DNA of 64,000 nt from SAR116 cluster alpha proteobacterium HIMB100. GTDB lineage: Bacteria; Pseudomonadota; Alphaproteobacteria; Puniceispirillales; Puniceispirillaceae. The notes beneath the pieces were generated by a model. The model had not been told where the DNA came from and made no database searches. It saw only the letters and a list, made by a program, of their open reading frames with translations. The stretch covers positions 62,001-126,000 of the forward strand of contig AFXB01000004.1 in assembly GCA_000238815.2 (NCBI GenBank). Direction: 5' to 3'. This document shows, one piece after another, positions 12,127-57,220 of this stretch (positions are counted from its first letter, which is position 1; each line of letters starts with the position of its first letter). The position numbers and the translations under genes are program-made.

Positions 12127-13308
12127 TCACAGCTTTGTGTCTATCACCACAGCAATGCCTTGACCGCCGCCAATACACATGGTTGCCAGACCATATCGTC
12201 CGCCAGTGCGGTGCAGTTCGTAAATCAATTTAGTCATGATAATGGCTCCGGTTGCGCCAACCGGATGACCTAGCGCGATTGCCCCACCATTTGGATTGAC
12301 AATTTCAGACGGCAACCCCAGTTCATTTGAAACTGCACAGGCCTGTGCCGCAAAGGCTTCATTACTCTCGACCACATGAATATCATTGACCTTCAGGCCG
12401 GCGCGCTCCAAAGCCATTTTTGATGCCGGAACAGGGCCCATGCCCATGATCCGTGGTGGCACACCTCCAAAGCCGTAGCTGACGATTTTGGCCAAAGGTG
12501 TTGTGCCTGCTTTGTCTGCACGTGATGCGTTGGCCAAGATTAACGCTGCTGCACCATCATTAATGCCAGAAGAATTACCTGCCGTCACCAAACCGTCTTT
12601 CGCAAAGGCTGGCTTCAGACCTGCGAGTGCATCTGCAGTGGTCTCAGCTCTGACATGCTCATCTGTATCAAAGACAAGCTCTTGCCGTCTTTTTTTGATG
12701 GTGATTGGTGTGATTTGTTCTTGAAAATAGCCTTGATCAATTGCCTTTGCAGCTCGATTTTGACTTTCAAGGGCAAAGTCATCCATATCCGCTCGGCTGA
12801 TCTCATAATCTTTTGCGACATTTTCTGCAGTAATCCCCATATGGCCAAGGCCAAACGGGTCATGTAACGCCCCCAGCATCATATCGGTCATCTCTGTATG
12901 GCCAAGACGCGCCCCCCAGCGCATCGCCGGAACATGATAGCCACCACGGCTCATGACCTCTGCCCCGCCAGCAACAGCCGCTTCAGCATCCCCTAACTGA
13001 ACAAGCTGTGTTGCGCTCACAATTGCCTGAAGGCCGCTACCGCATAAACGATTTACAGTCAGCGCAGGTGCTGATTCCGCCATGCCCGCACCAATGGTAA
13101 TGCAGCGTGAGATGTACATGTCACGGGCTTCTGTATGAATGACATTGCCATAAACACCATGGTCTATATCACCAGCTGTAAGTCCAGATCGGGTGATGGC
13201 CTCAGCGGTGACAGCAATACCCAGATCGATCGGTGATTTGTCTTTCAGGCTGCCTCCAAAGCCACCAATGGGGGTTCTCGTCGCAGAGAGAATGAAAACA
13301 TCTTCCAT
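12127..13308 (-). CDS. Acetyl-CoA C-acyltransferase (thiolase)
   Basis: Thiolase of 393 residues, the standard length for acetyl-CoA acetyltransferase/3-ketoacyl-CoA thiolase. The nucleophilic Cys is in NRLCGSGLQA near residue 89, the catalytic His in GGAIALGHPVGATG, and the second Cys in TMCIGGGQG near the C-terminus. I chose the ATG at 13308 because AAGGATG lies upstream. A longer frame reaching 13350 would run into the preceding dehydrogenase gene. Last of a minus-strand run: dmdA, acyl-CoA ligase, IPMDH-like dehydrogenase, thiolase. It could serve both that run and the convergent FadJ-like protein. Confidence 0.93.
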   Translation of the reverse strand: MEDVFILSATRTPIGGFGGSLKDKSPIDLGIAVTAEAITRSGLTAGDIDHGVYGNVIHTEARDMYISRCITIGAGMAESAPALTVNRLCGSGLQAIVSATQLVQLGDAEAAVAGGAEVMSRGGYHVPAMRWGARLGHTEMTDMMLGALHDPFGLGHMGITAENVAKDYEISRADMDDFALESQNRAAKAIDQGYFQEQITPITIKKRRQELVFDTDEHVRAETTADALAGLKPAFAKDGLVTAGNSSGINDGAAALILANASRADKAGTTPLAKIVSYGFGGVPPRIMGMGPVPASKMALERAGLKVNDIHVVESNEAFAAQACAVSNELGLPSEIVNPNGGAIALGHPVGATGAIIMTKLIYELHRTGGRYGLATMCIGGGQGIAVVIDTKL

Positions 13309-13324
13309 GGTTACATCCTTTTGT

Positions 13325-14434
13325 TCAGTCGATGGTCGCGGTTTTAACATGGTTAATAACCGCCTTTGTCATGTCATTTAGGCCCATATCACCGCCAAAT
13401 TCCATCGGCCGGAGAGCCCCTGCAGAAAAACCGTCCTCTACCGCACGTTCAATTAAGCGGGCAGCTGAGATCATAGCTTCATCATCTGCTTGATAGCCCA
13501 GCCAATCCAGCATCAAAGCGCCACTTAGAATGGCCGCCAGCGGGTTCGCTTTATCTTGGCCCATTATATCTGGAGCACTGCCATGGGCGGGTTGAAACAG
13601 GCAATGTTTATCACCGATTTCCGCCGATGCGGCCATGCCCATACCGCCAACCAAACCACCCGCCAGATCAGATAATATATCGCCGAACATATTTTCCATA
13701 ACCAGAACATCAAAGTCCCAAGGTTTTTTGACCAGATCAAGGGCTTGCGCATCTACATAATTATAGCGCGTGGCAATAGCAGGAAAGCGGGCTGCCCGCT
13801 CATCAAAGATAGAGCGGAAAAACGCAAAAGCCTGAAATACATTTGCCTTGTCAACACAAGTGACTTCACCTTTTTTACCTTGTGCTTTGCGGCGTTCAGC
13901 AACAGTGAAGGCAAAGTCGCATAACCGCTCTGTAATTGGCCGGGTCAGACGCAATGTTTCTCGGGCTTCATCTGCATTCGTCTTTGGGCTGCGGTTATGC
14001 ACGGCAGCAGTATAAAATAATCCTTCTGTACATTCACGGATGATGACGAGGTCTAGCTTTGCCGCTCGTTCATCTTTCAGGGCTTGCGGCGCGCCATCAT
14101 AGGCGCGGACAGGGCGAAGACCAGCATAGAGCTGGAAATTTTCGCGCAAACGCAAATGCGGTGAAATTTCTGTTCCATCTGCGGCTCTGATGGCAGGCAG
14201 GCCAATCGCGCCCAGGTAAATCGCATCTGCCTTTGCGGCACGTTCTTCGGCGTCTGCTTCGATATCCAGTCCTGTATCTCTATAATAAGCTGCACCAGCC
14301 AACAGCGTAGAGCAAGAGAGCGTATAGTTGCCAATACGCGTGGCCACCGCATCAAGAACGGCAAGGGTGGCGTCAGTAACCTCAACGCCAATACCATCTC
14401 CTGGAATGGTCGCTATTTGATAAGTTCTTGCCAT
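13325..14434 (-). CDS. Isocitrate/isopropylmalate dehydrogenase-family protein
   Basis: Beta-decarboxylating dehydrogenase of 369 residues. The N-terminal IPGDGIGVEV, the substrate-binding RENFQLYAGLRPVR arginines near residues 100-110, the catalytic Lys region VDKANVFQA, the metal-binding Asp segment ENMFGDILSDLAGG and the cofactor loop HGSAPDIMGQDKANP are all visible. It would oxidise and decarboxylate a 2-hydroxy acid with a carboxylate at C3, using NAD+ and Mg2+/Mn2+. It is not an obvious LeuB: the segment after the RECTEG motif (LFYTAAVH) differs. The position between an acyl-CoA ligase gene and a thiolase gene suggests a catabolic 2-hydroxydicarboxylate substrate. CGGAG precedes the ATG. 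Confidence 0.85.
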   Translation of the reverse strand: MARTYQIATIPGDGIGVEVTDATLAVLDAVATRIGNYTLSCSTLLAGAAYYRDTGLDIEADAEERAAKADAIYLGAIGLPAIRAADGTEISPHLRLRENFQLYAGLRPVRAYDGAPQALKDERAAKLDLVIIRECTEGLFYTAAVHNRSPKTNADEARETLRLTRPITERLCDFAFTVAERRKAQGKKGEVTCVDKANVFQAFAFFRSIFDERAARFPAIATRYNYVDAQALDLVKKPWDFDVLVMENMFGDILSDLAGGLVGGMGMAASAEIGDKHCLFQPAHGSAPDIMGQDKANPLAAILSGALMLDWLGYQADDEAMISAARLIERAVEDGFSAGALRPMEFGGDMGLNDMTKAVINHVKTATID

Positions 14435-14466
14435 TTAAACTCCGCGATGATTAGGCTTTTACCTGT

Positions 14467-16107
14467 TCAGGTTAACTGAGCGCGCAACATAAATTTCTGA
14501 AGTTTACCAGTTGATGTTTTAGGAATTTCAGTAAACACTACTTGTTTCGGACATTTAAAGCCCGCCAGATGCTCTCGGCAAAAGGTGATAACATCTGCTT
14601 CAGTTGCGCTTTCGCCTGGCTTCATCTCTAAAAAGGCACAAGGTGTCTCACCCCATTTTTCATCAGGTTTTGCCACCACTGCAGCATAGGCAACACCCGA
14701 AAAGCGATAGAGCACGCTTTCAACCTCTACAGAAGAAATATTCTCACCGCCTGAGATGATGATGTCTTTCAGCCTGTCTTTAATCTCAATATACCCATTA
14801 GGATGACGTACGGCCAAATCTCCAGATTTAAAATAGCCGTCTGCAAGAGCCTCCTCAGTGGCATCCGGATTTTTATGATAGCCCTTCATCACACAATTTG
14901 ACCTGAACATTACTTCACCAAGGCTTTGGCCATCAGCAGGGACAGGTGCCCCTGTCTGTTGGTCTAGCACCTCTAATGCTTCTGTATGGGTGAAGCGCAC
15001 ACCCTGTTGGGCCTTGATTGCGGCTTTTTCGCTAAAATCAAGGTCTTCCCAATCGTCATTCCAGGCACAATGCGTGACATGACCATAGGTTTCAGTCAGG
15101 CCATAAACCTGGGTTACATTAAAGCCTAAGCGTTCAATTCGTTCTAAAATAGCTGCAGGCGGCGGGGCTCCTGCAGTCATGATATTCACTGTATGCTCTG
15201 GTGTTTGAATGACATCTTCAGGCGCATTTACAAGCATACTGAGCACAATGGGAGCACCGCCAAAATGCGTGACTTTATGAGTGGCCAGCAGCGGATAAAT
15301 TTCTTCTGCTGAGATTTTTCGGCAACAAACTGTAGTTCCCGCCAAAATTGCCATCATCCAGGCATGCCCCCACCCATTACAATGGAATAAAGGCACAACA
15401 TACAGATAGGTAGGGTGCATTGGCATGTTCCAGACCGGAATAGTGCCCATTGCCATCAGATACGCTCCGCGGTGATGATAAACCACACCCTTTGGCCGCC
15501 CGCTGGTCCCGGAAGTGTAATTCAGGCACATTGCCTGCCATTCATCAGTCGGCATCTGCCAGTCATAATCAGGATCTGCCTCTTGTAAGAATGTCTCATA
15601 ATCACATGTCCCGAGACGCACGCCATTCGCCGATTCCTCAGCTTGCCCGTCAACAATATCAATGATGGTCATCTGTTTATTATCGCTCGCCGCAAGGGCT
15701 GCTTTCATAGCGCCCCCAAATGCAGCATCTGTAATTAAAAGGCGGGTATCTGCATGATCAAGAATATAAGCGATCGTATCTGTATCCAGTCGGGTGTTTA
15801 GTGTATTCAGTACCGCACCTGCCATAGCAACACCGAAATGCGCTTCAAACATTTCAGGGATATTCGGTGCCATAATCGTCACCACTTCACCAGGCTTAAC
15901 GCCTGCTTTGATGATCGCACTGGCAAGCCGCACTGACCGTTCATAAACCTGTGCCCAGCTATAGCGCCTGTTACCATATATTACCGCGTCTTTATCAGGA
16001 TAAATACTCGCCACGCGGGGCAGGAAAGATAACGGGGTCAGGGGCACATAATTGGCGGGGCGTCGTTCCATGAACCCTTTGTTAATGTCATCCAGATGAT
16101 GTGCCAT
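14467..16107 (-). CDS. Acyl-CoA synthetase (AMP-forming); candidate DmdB-type ligase
   Basis: ANL-superfamily ligase of 546 residues that activates a carboxylic acid to its CoA thioester through an acyl-adenylate. The P-loop motif YTSGTSGRPKGV lies near residue 185, the adenylation motif VYGLTETYGH near 320, the hinge region SGDLAVRHPNGYIEIKDR near 420, and the C-terminal catalytic Lys in KTSTGKLQK. The start at 16107 (MAHHLDDINK) avoids overlap with dmdA; a longer frame to 16185 would overlap it. Lying 41 bases after dmdA on the same strand, it is a reasonable candidate for methylmercaptopropionate-CoA ligase (DmdB), but closely related medium-chain acyl-CoA ligases look much the same. Confidence 0.88.
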   Translation of the reverse strand: MAHHLDDINKGFMERRPANYVPLTPLSFLPRVASIYPDKDAVIYGNRRYSWAQVYERSVRLASAIIKAGVKPGEVVTIMAPNIPEMFEAHFGVAMAGAVLNTLNTRLDTDTIAYILDHADTRLLITDAAFGGAMKAALAASDNKQMTIIDIVDGQAEESANGVRLGTCDYETFLQEADPDYDWQMPTDEWQAMCLNYTSGTSGRPKGVVYHHRGAYLMAMGTIPVWNMPMHPTYLYVVPLFHCNGWGHAWMMAILAGTTVCCRKISAEEIYPLLATHKVTHFGGAPIVLSMLVNAPEDVIQTPEHTVNIMTAGAPPPAAILERIERLGFNVTQVYGLTETYGHVTHCAWNDDWEDLDFSEKAAIKAQQGVRFTHTEALEVLDQQTGAPVPADGQSLGEVMFRSNCVMKGYHKNPDATEEALADGYFKSGDLAVRHPNGYIEIKDRLKDIIISGGENISSVEVESVLYRFSGVAYAAVVAKPDEKWGETPCAFLEMKPGESATEADVITFCREHLAGFKCPKQVVFTEIPKTSTGKLQKFMLRAQLT

Positions 16108-16148
16108 ATCTTGCCTACCCTCTATTAAATACTTTTCAGCCGACAAAT

Positions 16149-17255
16149 TCAGAACGGAAGTGTGGTACACACAGCCTGGCGCCACTGCCCGTCAAGATAA
16201 GCTTCGATTGTTTGTCCGTCTCGGCTTATCTCATGAGAGAGCATAGCAATTGCCAGATTTGAGTCAAAGTCTGGTGAAAACACAGCAGAGGTAATATAGC
16301 CACAAGGCGTGTCCCCTGAACGGCAAGGTGTTGTGTTTGCAACAGGGCGAAGGGGTTCATCGTCAATTTTCAACCCAGCTAAAGAGCGGGTCACACCGCT
16401 GTCTCTTTGCTTAAGTAATGCGGATTTGCCAATGAATTCAACATCACTGTCAAGTGAGCAATATTTATCAAGGCCGCATTCTAATGGTGTGTCTGAACGG
16501 GTCATGTCATTACCGAAGGATAACAGGCCGCCTTCAATGCGCTCAATCAGATTTGGACAGCCAGCACGTACGGAGAACGGCTCGCCAGCTTGCCAGATAT
16601 CATCCCATAATTGCAGCCCAAATGCTGTGTCATGCAGGTAAATTTCAAATCCGCCCTGTTTACTCCAGCCTGATCGCGCAATCAACAGGCTGTGGCCCCG
16701 CCAGTCAAAATAGCCGAAATTGAAAAATTTAAGCTGGCTGACTTCAGCACCAAAAACGGCTGTCATCAACTGGTCAGCAAGAGGCCCTTGAATTGCAAGA
16801 GGAGAGACATCAGGTTCGCTTATCTCAACATTCAACCCCAACCCCTCAGCAAGTCCAAGCGCCCAATATAAGACATCTGAATCAGCTATTGAAAACCAAA
16901 ACCTGTCCGCAGCCAAACATAAGGCTATAGGATCATTCAACATGCCGCCATTAGCGTCTGTCAGCGGTGCATAATAACATTTTCCGGGCACAGCTTTGCG
17001 TAAATCTCGCGCACTCATCATTGTCGCTAATTTATGCGCGTCAGGCCCTTTGATTTCAACCTGCCGTTCGGCGGCCACATCCCAAATCTGAACATATTTT
17101 TTCAAGTGGGCATAATCATCTTCAAGAGAGGAAAATGTTGCTGGCAGGAGCATATGGTTATAGACCGTATATCCTGACAAGGGCGCGGATTCGACACGTT
17201 CTGTAAACGGTGTCTGCCGTACGCGGCGTGAGGCAAATATGGGAAATCCAGGCAT
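16149..17255 (-). CDS. dmdA: Dimethylsulfoniopropionate demethylase
   Basis: GcvT-fold, tetrahydrofolate-dependent enzyme of 368 residues, the DmdA length, which moves a methyl group from DMSP to THF and leaves methylmercaptopropionate. Segments I recognise from marine DmdA are SRRVRQTPFTERVE at the N-terminus, YNHMLLP, IWDVAAERQVEI, FWFSIADSDVLYWALG, ERIEGGLLSFGNDMT and DTPLECGL. GGMLNDP replaces the GG(I/V)xDD of glycine-cleavage T-protein, a substitution typical of DmdA. AGAGGATAAAAA precedes the ATG. It leads a run that also contains an acyl-CoA ligase, an IPMDH-family enzyme and thiolase. This is one of the firmest functional calls in the window. Confidence 0.92.
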   Translation of the reverse strand: MPGFPIFASRRVRQTPFTERVESAPLSGYTVYNHMLLPATFSSLEDDYAHLKKYVQIWDVAAERQVEIKGPDAHKLATMMSARDLRKAVPGKCYYAPLTDANGGMLNDPIALCLAADRFWFSIADSDVLYWALGLAEGLGLNVEISEPDVSPLAIQGPLADQLMTAVFGAEVSQLKFFNFGYFDWRGHSLLIARSGWSKQGGFEIYLHDTAFGLQLWDDIWQAGEPFSVRAGCPNLIERIEGGLLSFGNDMTRSDTPLECGLDKYCSLDSDVEFIGKSALLKQRDSGVTRSLAGLKIDDEPLRPVANTTPCRSGDTPCGYITSAVFSPDFDSNLAIAMLSHEISRDGQTIEAYLDGQWRQAVCTTLPF

Positions 17256-17349
17256 TTTTTATCCTCTAAACAGACAGCTGAAATCAAGCTAGTGCACAAA
17301 AGCATGAAGTAGGGCTATGTGCAAGGCAGAAGAGGTGCTGATGTAGCGC

Positions 17350-17967
17350 TTAACGCACTTTTTCACAGATGATTTGTGTAAGCTGAGCCAGTCCCTGATG
17401 TCCCGGTCCGTCATCTAGACTGAATTCTGTGCAAACTTCATGGTGAATTGTGAATTCGGCAAGTTCTTTTTTCAAAACAGCTGGTTCATATAAAAGATCA
17501 GTTTGATCTGGACCTCCTGACTGATATTTCGCTTTGTAATCTGGCTGGTTTGGGCCAAACCCCTCTAAAAAGAGCAATCCGCCTACAGGAAGAGCTTGTT
17601 TAAGCCAGCGAAAACAAGCCTGCCGTTCTGCAACTGAGAAATGCAGAAAGCACAGAAAACAACTGTCTATGGCTGTTTCCAGCTCTGGCTGTTGTGTCGC
17701 ATTACCGATTATCCTGTTCACAGACAGCCCTCTGTGTTGGTCTTGTTGGCGGGCTCTGTTTGTTGCCACTTCAGACAGGTCAATCGCGGTGACGTTAAAG
17801 CCCTGTTCTGCAAGGGCACGTGACTGGCGCCCTTCACCATCGCCAAGGGACAAGATATGTCCCAGCCGGTCAGCAAAATTATGCACCGCCAGCTTGATTA
17901 TACCAGAGGGTCTGTCACCATATAGAAGCCCGTTTGAACGGCTGTATTTTTCATCCCAATTGACCAT
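17350..17967 (-). CDS. Class I SAM-dependent methyltransferase (TehB-like)
   Basis: Soluble methyltransferase of 205 residues. The N-terminal WDEKYS and YGDRPSG, motif I LSLGDGEGRQSRALAEQGF near residue 40, and the strand-2 acid in VTAIDLSE match the group annotated as TehB-like or small-molecule methyltransferases. The substrate is unknown. The open frame starts with TTG at 17991, but the ATG at 17967 has GAGGAG 9 bases upstream and is clearly the better start. It sits upstream of dmdA on the same strand, with a 94-base gap that likely holds the dmdA promoter, so co-transcription is uncertain. Confidence 0.85.
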   Translation of the reverse strand: MVNWDEKYSRSNGLLYGDRPSGIIKLAVHNFADRLGHILSLGDGEGRQSRALAEQGFNVTAIDLSEVATNRARQQDQHRGLSVNRIIGNATQQPELETAIDSCFLCFLHFSVAERQACFRWLKQALPVGGLLFLEGFGPNQPDYKAKYQSGGPDQTDLLYEPAVLKKELAEFTIHHEVCTEFSLDDGPGHQGLAQLTQIICEKVR

Positions 17968-17999
17968 AAACTGTGGCTCCTCAGAGAACAAATGATACC

Positions 18000-18629
18000 T
18001 TAAATGAGATTCAGGTGTGATACGAATAGTGACACTGACAAGCCAATCAAAATAAGGGCAAACAATCCATCACGAATACGGGCATAGCGTGTCATGAGAC
18101 CGTGAACAACTGCGGTGCTGGCCAGAACAGCGTAGAATATATATACCGCCATATCAATAAACCCAGCCAGCCCGGCCATTGTTAAATGCACAGCAAATGA
18201 CTGATCGCTGCTAAGAAACTGACTGAAAAGTGAGATGAAAAAGGCGGCGATTTTTGGGTTGAAGACAGCTATTAAAAAGCCATCTCGAAAAGCCCTTTGA
18301 ACAGCTGCAGATTGTGTTCTCTCAGAACAGGGCTGTGCTGGCTTTATGATTGACCAGAGAATTCGTGCCCCAAGCCAAAAAAGCAAGCCCGCTCCCATGA
18401 GCTGAAGCACGAAAAATACAGTCTGATAATAAGTAAGCAGATAGCTGAGCCCACTCGCCGCGGCCAGAGCGTAACCGAACACCCCTAATCCGTGACCAAC
18501 CGAAGCCAGCACACCCGCTGAACGACCGTTTTCCGATGTACAGGCCAAGATGACCATCAGACTTGGTCCTGGTGACAAGGCCCCCAGCAGACAAATCGAA
18601 ATGAGGGACAGCCATTCAGCTAACGCCAT
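18000..18629 (-). CDS. LysE/RhtB-family amino-acid exporter
   Basis: Six-helix inner-membrane protein of 209 residues. The N-terminal LGALSPGPSLMVIL, the conserved SPGP motif of LysE/RhtB exporters, and FRDGFLIAVFNPKIAAFF in the middle are diagnostic. It would export amino acids or related small molecules. The start at 18629 (MALAEWLSL) has AAGG upstream and lies one base beyond the carbonic anhydrase stop, so the two are translationally close. A longer frame would overlap that gene. The next gene, a methyltransferase, follows in the same direction. Confidence 0.9.
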   Translation of the reverse strand: MALAEWLSLISICLLGALSPGPSLMVILACTSENGRSAGVLASVGHGLGVFGYALAAASGLSYLLTYYQTVFFVLQLMGAGLLFWLGARILWSIIKPAQPCSERTQSAAVQRAFRDGFLIAVFNPKIAAFFISLFSQFLSSDQSFAVHLTMAGLAGFIDMAVYIFYAVLASTAVVHGLMTRYARIRDGLFALILIGLSVSLFVSHLNLI

Positions 18630-18630
18630 G

Positions 18631-19302
18631 TCAGCCTTGTTCAGTCCTGGCAGGAACCAGTGATATGAATTTTCCTTCTTTACTGTCAAACGCCCATAAG
18701 CTGCCGTTATTCATATCAAACCACCAGCCATGTAAGGCCAGCTCGCCTGCGGCCTCTTTGTCTTTGATAAAAGAAAAACTGCGCAGATTTTTTAATGAGT
18801 TCGCAACAGAAGCCTGTTCAGCGTCACGAAACTTGTCCGGCTCAGGTTGGTTCATATCAACCTGATCTATTGCTGGCCTGGCCACATCAACCCAGCCCCG
18901 TATAAAGCTACGGCGGTTTTCTTCGGTTTCCGCAGCCTGCTCTTCTTCGGTTTGTTGGCAATAGCTGCACAGGGCTTTCATACCGCCACATAAGGCATGC
19001 CCCATCACAATAATATGTTCAACCTTCAAATCCTTAACACCGAATTCCAAGGCTGAACTTACGCTATGATCATCAGTGTCATCTCGATAAGGCGGAACCA
19101 AATTTGCCACATTTCTAATCACAAACAAATCGCCTGGCGAGGCGTTGAACATCATAGCCGGATCCACGCGTGAATCTGCGCATGAAATCATCATAACTTT
19201 TGGGGCTTGTCCATGTGTGGTCAGATGTTCGAAAAGCTGTTTGCTTTCTTCAAAATAGCGGGATCTGAACCCGTTAAATCCGTTGGTGAGTGCATCTATC
19301 AT
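18631..19302 (-). CDS. Beta-class carbonic anhydrase
   Basis: Zinc enzyme of 223 residues that interconverts CO2 and bicarbonate. The zinc ligands and catalytic dyad are in ISCADSRVDP (Cys, with the Asp-Arg pair, near residues 43-46) and VMGHALCGGM (His and Cys near 103-106). NVANLVPPY is also a family motif. The frame is open to 19425, but those extra residues are not family-like. The ATG at 19302 (MIDALTNGF) begins the normal protein, with ACAGG just before it. It is divergent from the tartrate dehydrogenase gene, with 144 bases between them. Confidence 0.92.
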   Translation of the reverse strand: MIDALTNGFNGFRSRYFEESKQLFEHLTTHGQAPKVMMISCADSRVDPAMMFNASPGDLFVIRNVANLVPPYRDDTDDHSVSSALEFGVKDLKVEHIIVMGHALCGGMKALCSYCQQTEEEQAAETEENRRSFIRGWVDVARPAIDQVDMNQPEPDKFRDAEQASVANSLKNLRSFSFIKDKEAAGELALHGWWFDMNNGSLWAFDSKEGKFISLVPARTEQG

Positions 19303-19446
19303 AAGCCTGTTTCCGCTGTTGTTTGATAGTGGACGTTCATCTGCCGGTACCCTTTTGTTCAGGAAAATAGAGGGAAAACAAATTGCCGTCAAAGGGATAT
19401 CATTGTACCAAACAAAAAGAGACAAGGTCCAGGACAGGAAAATCAG

Positions 19447-20520
19447 ATGCGAAAAAATAAATATTCAATCGCTGTTATCGCTGGTGATGGTATTGGCAAA
19501 GAAGTTATTCCCGAAGGTCTGCGCGTGCTCGAAGTTGTGAGCAGAAAACATGGCCTTAACCTTGAATTCACAGAGTATCCCTATTCAAGTGTGGATTATT
19601 ACGAGCAGCATGGCAAAATGTTGCCTGATGACTGGCAGTCTGATTTGCAAAAGCACGATGCGATTTTCTTTGGTGCTGTTGGCTGGCCGGAAAAATTACC
19701 CGATCATGTCTCTCTGTGGGGCTCCTTGCTTCAGTTCAGACGGGCATTTGATCAATATATAAATCTGCGGCCGGTCCGATTGATGCCTGGTGTTCCGTCA
19801 CCTCTTGCCGGGCGCAAACCAGGTGATATAGATTTTTGGATTGTCCGGGAAAATACCGAGGGCGAATACAGCTCGATTGGTGGGCGCATGTTTGAGGGCA
19901 CAGACAGAGAATTTGTGGTTCAGGAAACTGTGATGACCAGAACAGGTGTCGATCGGGTGTTGGCCTATGCGTTTGAACTGGCCAACGCCAGAGACGCCAA
20001 ACATCTGACATCAGCCACTAAATCAAATGGCATTTCTATCTCGATGCCTTATTGGGATGAACGGGTAGAGGAGATGGCCAAACGGTTTCCAAATGTGAAT
20101 GTGGATAAATATCATATCGATATTCTGACCGCCCATTTTGTTTTGCGGCCAGATATGTTTGATGTTGTGGTCGGGTCAAATCTGTTTGGGGATATTTTAT
20201 CTGATTTGGGACCGGCTTGTACTGGCACAATTGGCATTGCCCCATCTGGAAACATAAATCCAGAAGGGGTGTTCCCGTCATTATTTGAACCTGTACACGG
20301 ATCTGCACCAGACATTGCCGGACAAGGGATCGCCAACCCCGTTGGTCAGATATGGGCTGGGGCAATGATGCTTGAACATTTGGGGCATAAGGAAGCGGCC
20401 GATGATATTGTGGCCGCAATATCTGATGTGCTGGCTATTCCTGAATTCCGTACAGCAGATCTTGGCGGGGCAGCGAATACGGTGGCTTGTGGTAAAGCTA
20501 TCGCAGAACATATTAAATAA
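19447..20520 (+). CDS. Tartrate dehydrogenase / D-malate dehydrogenase (decarboxylating)
   Basis: Isopropylmalate-dehydrogenase-family enzyme of 357 residues, close to TtuC/DmlA. IAGDGIGKEVIPEGLRVL, LLQFRRAFDQYINLRPVR (the substrate arginines), VRENTEGEYSSIGG, TSATKSNGI (the catalytic-Lys region), NLFGDILSDLGPA and EPVHGSAPDIAGQGIANP follow the family order. The ENTEGEYS-type motif and overall match favour tartrate/D-malate over leucine biosynthesis. It would oxidise D-malate or tartrate with NAD+, often with decarboxylation. GGACAGGAAAA precedes the ATG. It is clearly different from the family member at 13325. Confidence 0.88.
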   Translation: MRKNKYSIAVIAGDGIGKEVIPEGLRVLEVVSRKHGLNLEFTEYPYSSVDYYEQHGKMLPDDWQSDLQKHDAIFFGAVGWPEKLPDHVSLWGSLLQFRRAFDQYINLRPVRLMPGVPSPLAGRKPGDIDFWIVRENTEGEYSSIGGRMFEGTDREFVVQETVMTRTGVDRVLAYAFELANARDAKHLTSATKSNGISISMPYWDERVEEMAKRFPNVNVDKYHIDILTAHFVLRPDMFDVVVGSNLFGDILSDLGPACTGTIGIAPSGNINPEGVFPSLFEPVHGSAPDIAGQGIANPVGQIWAGAMMLEHLGHKEAADDIVAAISDVLAIPEFRTADLGGAANTVACGKAIAEHIK

Positions 20521-56734: not shown

Positions 56735-57068
56735 TAGCGGGACCGCTTCTGTTGCCAGGTGCAGCCCCAAACCCCGCCTGACAGAGCTCAAGCCATCAGG
56801 ACTTTAAAATGGTTACGCCTGCCGCATTAAGCAGCGATAGCAACCGGAGCAGTGTTGTCGTTTGCAACTACTACATGGCCCGATAACGGCGGGTACCATA
56901 CCGAACGAAAATAATGTCTTTACCACATGCGTCGATCCTATTTCGCCCCCAAAAGTCAACCTGCATAACTTTGCCTGCTGATATTTGGTGGAGGCGCCGG
57001 GTACCGCCCCCGGGTCCGCCCTGCTTATTCCACATTACGTTTATCGTCATAGCCAGCCGAAACTGGCC
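56735..57068 (-). ncRNA. ssrA: Split (circularly permuted) tmRNA, ssrA
   Basis: Two-piece tmRNA read on the minus strand, acceptor piece first. The acceptor piece ends CGCCTCC-ACCA (56996-56986) and carries a 5-bp T-arm, CCGGG-GGCGGTA-CCCGG, whose loop lacks TTC. A 35-base spacer (56985-56951) is removed, and the coding piece begins GGGGGCGAAATAGGATCGAC at 56950. GGGGGCG pairs perfectly (one G-T) with CGCCTCC to form the acceptor stem. The tag reading frame (56865-56827) encodes ANDNTAPVAIAA then TAA. The outer ends are approximate. tmRNA frees stalled ribosomes and tags the nascent chain for proteolysis. The adjacent sspB codes for the adaptor that recognises such tags. The rest of the gap to thyA (57103-57220) shows only the tmRNA promoter and the thyA ribosome site. 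Confidence 0.95.
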
Positions 57069-57073
57069 TTTTG

Positions 57074-57102
57074 AGTATAACAGGCTAATGAGGGTAAATA
57101 AA
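57074..57102 (-). promoter_or_regulatory. Candidate promoter of the tmRNA gene
   Basis: On the minus strand TATACT (57079-57074) is a good -10 element, with TTTATT (57102-57097) 17 bases further upstream as a poor -35. It lies just before the hairpin GCCAG-TTTCGG-CTGGC that begins the acceptor piece, so transcription would start near 57068. Confidence 0.45.
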
Positions 57103-57220
57103 AGTTTTTTGCGGATTTCATTCAATTTTACGAAGGACGATTATCTCAGCTCTGGAAACAGGAAGGTAGCTTTGCTAGGGTGAGATAAGAATGTGAATAG
57201 GCATATAGCAGAGAGGTTCT

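Follow-up and report, generated by a model that had tools for sequence, protein, structure and literature searches.

A SAR116 dmdA locus pairs a SAR11-type dmdB candidate with two genes of other likely roles

Demethylation of dimethylsulfoniopropionate (DMSP) affects how algal sulfur is divided between retention in microbes and release as dimethyl sulfide. In SAR116 cluster alphaproteobacterium HIMB100, within a 64,000-nucleotide stretch of contig AFXB01000004.1 (the window), the DMSP demethylase gene dmdA is followed on the same strand by genes for an acyl-CoA ligase, a member of the isopropylmalate dehydrogenase (IPMDH) family, and a thiolase. Do these four genes specify one pathway, or does a demethylation gene pair keep company here with genes of other function? 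An earlier note, made from the sequence alone, suggested an unrecognized branch for DMSP-derived or co-occurring acids.

The sections of the SAR116 literature consulted report dmdA, no dmdD, and homologues of dmdB and dmdC whose identity is low, at about 40% (PMC8547437); a later study, likewise seen in part, predicts dmdABC in most of the clade, with dmdD sparse (PMC12262181). The excerpts searched held no description of the dmdA-ligase-IPMDH-like-thiolase order, and a search that paired dmdA with isopropylmalate dehydrogenase turned up a single paper, on acetogens.

The run probably represents a genus-level rearrangement of a SAR11-like demethylation locus, with the later steps probably encoded on another contig (C10) and with the IPMDH-like and thiolase genes as passengers. 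We rate it as a variation on a known arrangement: dmdA and dmdB, paired much as in SAR11, would stand apart from their partner genes and next to two others with different likely roles. DmdA would remove a methyl group from DMSP to yield methylmercaptopropionate (MMPA), which the ligase would convert to MMPA-CoA (the DmdB step). Subsequent steps would probably be supplied by the C10 cluster: its acyl-CoA dehydrogenase for the DmdC step; its FadB-like hydratase/dehydrogenase for the DmdD/AcuH step; and MetY to capture released methanethiol into methionine. The IPMDH-like and BktB-like proteins would have joined the locus in the window lineage and most likely still perform separate functions, the dehydrogenase oxidizing a hydroxy acid of the sugar-acid type (as its relatives encoded next to 3-oxo-tetronate kinase would) and the thiolase acting in the thiolysis step of short-chain beta-oxidation. 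Family membership, gene order, linkage, and shared motifs are read directly from the genomes; from them we infer the enzyme activities, co-transcription, and the order of steps.

Conservation of the gene order

Reading the sequence bore out the four genes noted earlier, with their order, their shared minus strand, and their gaps of 41, 32, and 16 bases (Table 1). The window genome (SAR116 group; 2.46 Mb, 10 contigs) is one of eight from its genus, g1, and the full order is present in five: the window genome itself (G000), G001, G002, G003 (whose contig stops within the thiolase gene), and G007. Among the matches listed, the four proteins are 67-87% identical between the window genome and the other four genomes. 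Recurrence of the complete order in these four indicates that it did not arise by chance. G005 has IPMDH-like-thiolase-FadB, its contig ending there; G004 (64% complete) and G006 (76%) have no close IPMDH-like match among the matches listed.

The sister genera differ. Genus g5 (G011 and G021) has dmdA-IPMDH-like-thiolase-FadB with no ligase gene between, the G021 dmdA being clipped by contig ends. In G012 (genus g6), ligase and IPMDH-like genes share one contig, and the rest of the IPMDH-like gene stands directly beside the FadB gene on another. The gene set therefore is real but variable in content between sister genera: the g5 loci lack the ligase, and the g6 locus lacks dmdA and the thiolase.

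Wider context comes from 80 named dmdA loci, the best 80 of at least 582 confirmed; these were ranked by likeness to the query, so SAR11 dominates, and the thresholds for neighbors (bit scores, 8 kb) were chosen by the analyst. An IPMDH-like gene lies near dmdA in only 4 of the 80, three from the window lineage and the fourth on the opposite strand; the thiolase does so in 3. This scarcity bears on the idea that the four genes constitute one undescribed pathway for DMSP-derived acids. That idea draws on the small gaps, the common strand, and the order conserved in five of eight genus genomes, as well as on an IPMDH-like gene near dmdA in a Granulosicoccaceae genome (L232). Against it stand the scarcity itself, the ligase missing from the g5 locus, the dmdA and thiolase missing from the g6 locus, and IPMDH-like motifs that, where inspected, are nearly unchanged relative to kinase-linked relatives. 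We judge a single four-gene pathway to be improbable.

A SAR11-type dmdB candidate beside dmdA

The window DmdA scores 508.5 bits on the DMSP demethylase model NF009133, passing the cut-off of 410. Its best solved-structure relative is 3tfh (383.6 bits), which we take to be the SAR11 DmdA structure. The protein carries W197, a tryptophan tied to DMSP binding, as well as E204 and Y206 at the folate site; going by residue spacing, these would correspond to the residues numbered W171, 178E, and 180Y in the portion of PMC7487153 consulted.

The ligase passes the PRK08162 acyl-CoA synthetase model (837.6 on NF006020; cut-off 677) and fails PRK07008, the equivalog curated for 3-(methylthio)propionyl-CoA ligase (300 bits on NF005426; cut-off 822). 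The ligase from the one SAR11 dmdA locus scanned (L228) likewise passes the first (861.5) and fails the second (351.9). The curated model, then, misses the ligases of both dmdA loci. Elsewhere in the window genome, a ligase of the curated type was sought, and none exceeded the NF005426 cut-off; the best match was the window ligase.

Eight SAR11 ligases share 52-55% identity with the window ligase, and four from the Amylibacter group share 57.6-59.3%. (The ligase tree retained the first eight rows from L228 onward, the remainder being dropped.) Moreover, 51 of the 80 named loci, a SAR11-rich sample, have a PRK08162-type ligase no more than 8 kb from dmdA. The earlier suggestion that this gene is a dmdB candidate is well supported, with the amendment that the putative MMPA-CoA ligase is of the SAR11 (PRK08162) type and not of the curated type.

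Twenty-two SAR116 loci were also picked by ligase similarity, by hand for genus coverage, from matches in 89 of 101 genomes; some are clipped by contig ends. Genes for MetY, an acyl-CoA dehydrogenase, a hydrolase, or a 785-residue FadB lie within 8 kb in 18 of these. MetY is that close in 13, and a DmdA-family gene in 5.

These neighborhoods help to evaluate a different explanation, in which dmdA fell by chance into an operon for the beta-oxidation of short-chain acids, made up of ligase, FadB, thiolase, and IPMDH-like genes; its ligase would act mainly on butyrate-like acids and on MMPA only incidentally. The ligase, the thiolase, and the convergently encoded FadB all belong to beta-oxidation families, and the G012 locus retains ligase, IPMDH-like, and FadB genes without dmdA. 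Known DmdB and DmdC enzymes are broad; for one Ruegeria pomeroyi DmdB, the part of PMC5395565 seen gives a Km that is lower with butyrate than with MMPA. However, in SAR11, the Amylibacter group, G017, and g1, dmdA has a ligase of this type close by; MetY is found near the ligase in 13 of the 22 ligase-picked loci; and the acyl-CoA dehydrogenase of the set resides in the MetY cluster, not in the window locus. A beta-oxidation operon is an unlikely account of the run.

The second cluster

Where are the partners of the dmdA-dmdB pair? On contig C10 of the window genome, at about 416-422 kb, genes for an acyl-CoA dehydrogenase, MetY, a hydrolase, and a FadB of the 785-residue type stand in a row. 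The assignments rest on comparison with the genes of relatives (58-66% identity, or phmmer score) and not on a family-model scan. The MetY proteins at loci L131 and L126 score 650.5 and 646.6 on PRK08134, O-acetylhomoserine aminocarboxypropyltransferase (cut-off 636). SAR11 MetY forms methionine from methanethiol and O-acetylhomoserine, as stated in the part of PMC5069961 consulted.

Genome G017 carries the acyl-CoA dehydrogenase-MetY-hydrolase-FadB set along with thiolase, ligase, and dmdA on a single contig, from which we infer that a set like that of G017 is split in the window genome. Because the ligase is linked to sulfur genes, and because the set is on another contig, dmdA-dmdB would constitute the front half of a split SAR11-like pathway. 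This indicates a concrete SAR116 route: a SAR11-type ligase adjoining dmdA and, in a second cluster, the dehydrogenase alongside MetY for methanethiol capture.

A divergent arrangement, dmdA on one side and MetY-hydrolase-FadB-ligase on the other, is present in the Amylibacter group (L222-L225) and in SAR116 genus g3 (L126 and L128, the latter ending before the ligase). Its occurrence in both Rhodobacteraceae and SAR116 suggests horizontal transfer.

Other dmdA-like loci

The window genome encodes a second DmdA-like protein (G000:C8:23781-24848; L133), which scores 378.8 bits against the cut-off of 410. No PRK08162-type ligase was found in the 16 kb read around it. A DmdA-like paralogue at three other loci (L134, 3499-7118; L135; L149) is about 40% identical to the window DmdA, among the matches listed; that of L134 scores 376.8 bits, again under the cut-off. 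At these three loci, a PRK08162-like ligase (48-50%) and an enoyl-CoA hydratase are encoded near the paralogue. The result is a parallel trio, whose substrate may be a different one.

In a second type of dmdA locus, the gene accompanies those for an LldD-like hydroxy-acid dehydrogenase, a thiamine-diphosphate enzyme, and a transthyretin/HIUase-like protein. Examples are from SAR116 (L142, L143, L146, and L152) and Planktomarina (L286 and L288), along with L239, L249, L265, and L273; all three partners are present in 6 of the 80 named dmdA loci. At several, SGY replaces SGW at the binding motif. Our guess is that such loci could feed in DMSP from a 2-hydroxy acid, for example 4-dimethylsulfonio-2-hydroxybutyrate.

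The IPMDH-like dehydrogenase

The window protein contains PF00180 and falls below the cut-off of all 16 NCBIfam families matched. Two candidate identities were rejected: tartrate dehydrogenase (TTC), with 240.2 on TIGR02089 (cut-off 470.4) and a concordant tree; and LeuB, with 244.2 on TIGR00169 (cut-off 353.2) and a tree position far from the SAR11 LeuB rows. An assignment to the leucine pathway takes its appeal from SAR11, where leuC-leuD-leuB precedes the dmd genes and LeuB adjoins the acyl-CoA dehydrogenase (L228). Given the score, the tree, and the absence of leuC or leuD among the identified neighbors of the window gene, that assignment is scarcely credible. The SAR11 arrangement itself, with dmd genes directly after leuC-leuD-leuB (L228, 2698-11107, and others), also places an IPMDH-family gene near dmdA, one that is not orthologous to the gene in the window.

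Relatives of the window protein, with 49-66% identity among the matches listed, are spread across the order and class. Matches at E <= 1e-80 occur in 36 of 385 class genomes, window lineage included, and the 20 class loci read are a subset of those 36. Altogether, 53 IPMDH-like loci outside the window lineage were read, with L232 counted apart. A 3-oxo-tetronate kinase gene is near 23, an ABM-domain gene near 29, and either near 30. At L198 and L200, the neighbors are gluconolactonase-like, Gfo/Idh/MocA, GntR, or 3-oxo-tetronate 4-phosphate decarboxylase genes. Across the 53 loci, dmdA, the PRK08162 ligase, MetY, and the 785-residue FadB never exceeded threshold, and this sample serves as an accidental control for the linkage between ligase and sulfur genes.

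In the tree of IPMDH-like proteins, eight g1/g5 rows form one clade (98/92), sister to a 25-row clade (99/96) with 10 kinase-linked rows, 4 ABM-linked rows, and others unmarked. (The tree is midpoint-rooted, has very long outgroup branches, and retains 4 of the 16 rows L061-L076.) The substrate-helix motif, GTEI[S/A]PHLRLR...LYAGxRP, is common to the eight g1/g5 rows and to 7 of 11 kinase-linked rows in the tree. One of those seven reads RTEI, three rows from family f4 read ICPHLRFR, and L212 differs more. Two further stretches, RE[S/C]TEGLFY[T/S]AAVH and VDKANVF, are common to the window clade and its close kinase-linked relatives. Judged from these motifs, the inspected active-site stretches were not remodeled upon entry into the dmdA locus.

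The nearly unchanged motifs, the kinase-linked relatives, and the sugar-acid-like neighborhoods make a sugar-acid type hydroxy acid the most likely substrate. Even L232, in which the IPMDH-like gene is near dmdA on the opposite strand, includes genes for a Gfo/Idh/MocA oxidoreductase and a TRAP transporter, a sugar-acid-like setting. A literature search on IPMDH-family tetronate dehydrogenases returned nothing usable among the papers listed.

The thiolase

The thiolase scores 613.8 on NF006552, the PRK09051 BktB-like subfamily (cut-off 565, passed), and 575.4 on NF042999, the BktB equivalog (cut-off 725, failed). Its orthologues (E <= 1e-150) are present in 57 of 101 relatives, mostly distant from dmdA; among the loci read, only g1, g5, and G017 have it next to a dmdA closely akin to that of the window. 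The protein reads as a short-chain beta-oxidation enzyme drawn into the dmdA locus.

The earlier note was right to place the dehydrogenase and thiolase outside the known DMSP demethylation pathway. The analysis does not support its unrecognized branch for acids derived from DMSP: the inspected dehydrogenase motifs are nearly those of relatives beside 3-oxo-tetronate kinase, thiolase orthologues are mostly away from dmdA, and individual genes are missing from sister-genus loci. An integrated DMSP branch of all four genes is unlikely. Its other suggestion, co-occurring acids, fits the sugar-acid neighborhoods of the dehydrogenase's relatives; overall, its interpretation is supported in part. Co-transcription of dmdA-dmdB with genes for co-occurring acids is possible.

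The thiolase does permit a more elaborate scheme. Gonyol is 5-dimethylsulfonio-3-hydroxypentanoate, and the BktB family is known for C5 3-oxoacyl-CoA. The locus might feed in DMSP from such a longer algal sulfonio acid: the ligase would activate gonyol; the convergently encoded FadB would oxidize C3; the thiolase would release acetyl-CoA and DMSP-CoA, the latter becoming DMSP for DmdA; and a hydroxy acid released alongside would fall to the IPMDH-like enzyme. We consider this scheme very improbable. Four tested bacteria consumed gonyol, and the part of PMC7221440 consulted names no genes for its consumption.

Points against a rearranged SAR11-like locus

Several observations weigh against the proposal that a SAR11-like pair was rearranged and acquired two passengers. 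All four sulfur-cluster genes are missing from the neighborhoods of four of the 22 ligase loci (L113, L138, L139, and L140), and PRK08162 is a broad subfamily model, silent on MMPA. The G012 locus joins ligase and IPMDH-like genes without dmdA or the thiolase, which is elsewhere in that genome; genus g5 retains dmdA-IPMDH-like-thiolase without the ligase. This cohesion of dmdA, IPMDH-like, and thiolase genes (five of eight genus genomes, and g5) exceeds what mere passengers need, and L232 is one more IPMDH-like gene next to dmdA, from outside the window lineage. Finally, the sugar-acid association is uneven: 23 of the 53 outside-lineage loci have neither kinase nor ABM marker; 15 of the 23 kinase-linked rows come from a single family, f4; and the window IPMDH-like gene itself has neither marker, 3-oxo-tetronate kinase or ABM, within 8 kb.

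Layout of the locus

Table 1. Genes of the dmdA locus and its flanks, with positions in the window
Feature	Coordinates	Strand	Evidence
dmdA, DMSP demethylase, 368 aa	16149..17255	-	NF009133; 3tfh match; W197, E204, and Y206
SAR11-type dmdB candidate, PRK08162 acyl-CoA ligase, 546 aa	14467..16107	-	NF006020; ATG start at 16107
IPMDH-family dehydrogenase, 369 aa	13325..14434	-	PF00180
BktB-like beta-ketothiolase, 393 aa	12127..13308	-	NF006552; PDB 4nzs
FadB/FadJ-like enoyl-CoA hydratase/3-hydroxyacyl-CoA dehydrogenase, 643 aa	10188..12119	+	PF00378, PF02737, PF00725
Methyltransferase-domain protein, upstream of dmdA	17350..17991	-	PF13649/PF08241
LysE-type translocator	18000..18689	-	PF01810
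Carbonic anhydrase	18631..19425	-	PF00484
Tartrate dehydrogenase-type second IPMDH-family gene, locus flank	19447..20520	+	TIGR02089, 568.8 > 470.4

The FadB-like gene is convergent with the thiolase gene, and it occupies the same end of the locus in G001, G005, G007, G011, G012, and G021. At the other flank, a tartrate dehydrogenase-type gene is encoded on the opposite strand, about 2 kb upstream of dmdA; this flank is kept in G001, G007, G011, G012, and G021.

That dmdA leads the run, as described previously, is not clear. Methyltransferase, LysE translocator, and carbonic anhydrase genes lie upstream on the same strand, so dmdA need not open the transcript. The gap between methyltransferase gene and dmdA is 94 bases (17256-17349). 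A consensus promoter scan placed none of its 14 promoter-like matches in this gap, and the total of 14 is near the shuffled mean (10.9, standard deviation 3.7); the negative therefore carries little weight. Rfam at gathering thresholds revealed no known regulatory RNA ahead of dmdA; the window matches were to tmRNA only. This alphaproteobacterial tmRNA (56736-57106, minus strand) was detected by Rfam and missed by ARAGORN.

Comparison with known systems

The individual proteins show partial likeness to characterized enzymes. PDB 6ihk, which we take to be a DmdB, is the Roseobacter reference. The window ligase shares its acyl-CoA ligase superfamily, with aligned FH-x-N-x-W and C-terminal TGK-x-x-K stretches; however, the match is only 223 bits and ranks behind that to the long-chain fatty acid-CoA ligase 1ult. 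The thiolase resembles BktB in its match to PDB 4nzs (494.7 bits) and in passing the PRK09051 subfamily model, but falls short of the BktB equivalog cut-off. The IPMDH-like protein shares PF00180 with tartrate dehydrogenase, LeuB, and homoisocitrate dehydrogenase, as well as RE and K-x-N stretches with the outgroup rows. It is nevertheless below the equivalog cut-offs, and its own subfamily is often found beside 3-oxo-tetronate kinase.

Clusters of the Amylibacter group and SAR116 genus g3 have the same ligase family (58-62% identity) and a DmdA that is 57-63% identical, among the matches listed. Their ligase rows form a group apart from the window's in the ligase tree, and the MetY-hydrolase-FadB part is on a separate contig in the window genome.

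The typical SAR11 order is leuC-leuD-leuB-acyl-CoA dehydrogenase-ligase-alpha/beta hydrolase-dmdA, some loci being without a scored hydrolase. In L228, LeuC, LeuD, and LeuB all exceed their cut-offs (LeuB, 468.3 on TIGR00169, above 353.2). The window locus, by contrast, has no leuC-leuD-leuB set upstream and no acyl-CoA dehydrogenase or hydrolase; dmdA comes first, and IPMDH-like and thiolase genes are added. Common to both is the close placement, on the same strand, of dmdA and a PRK08162 ligase.

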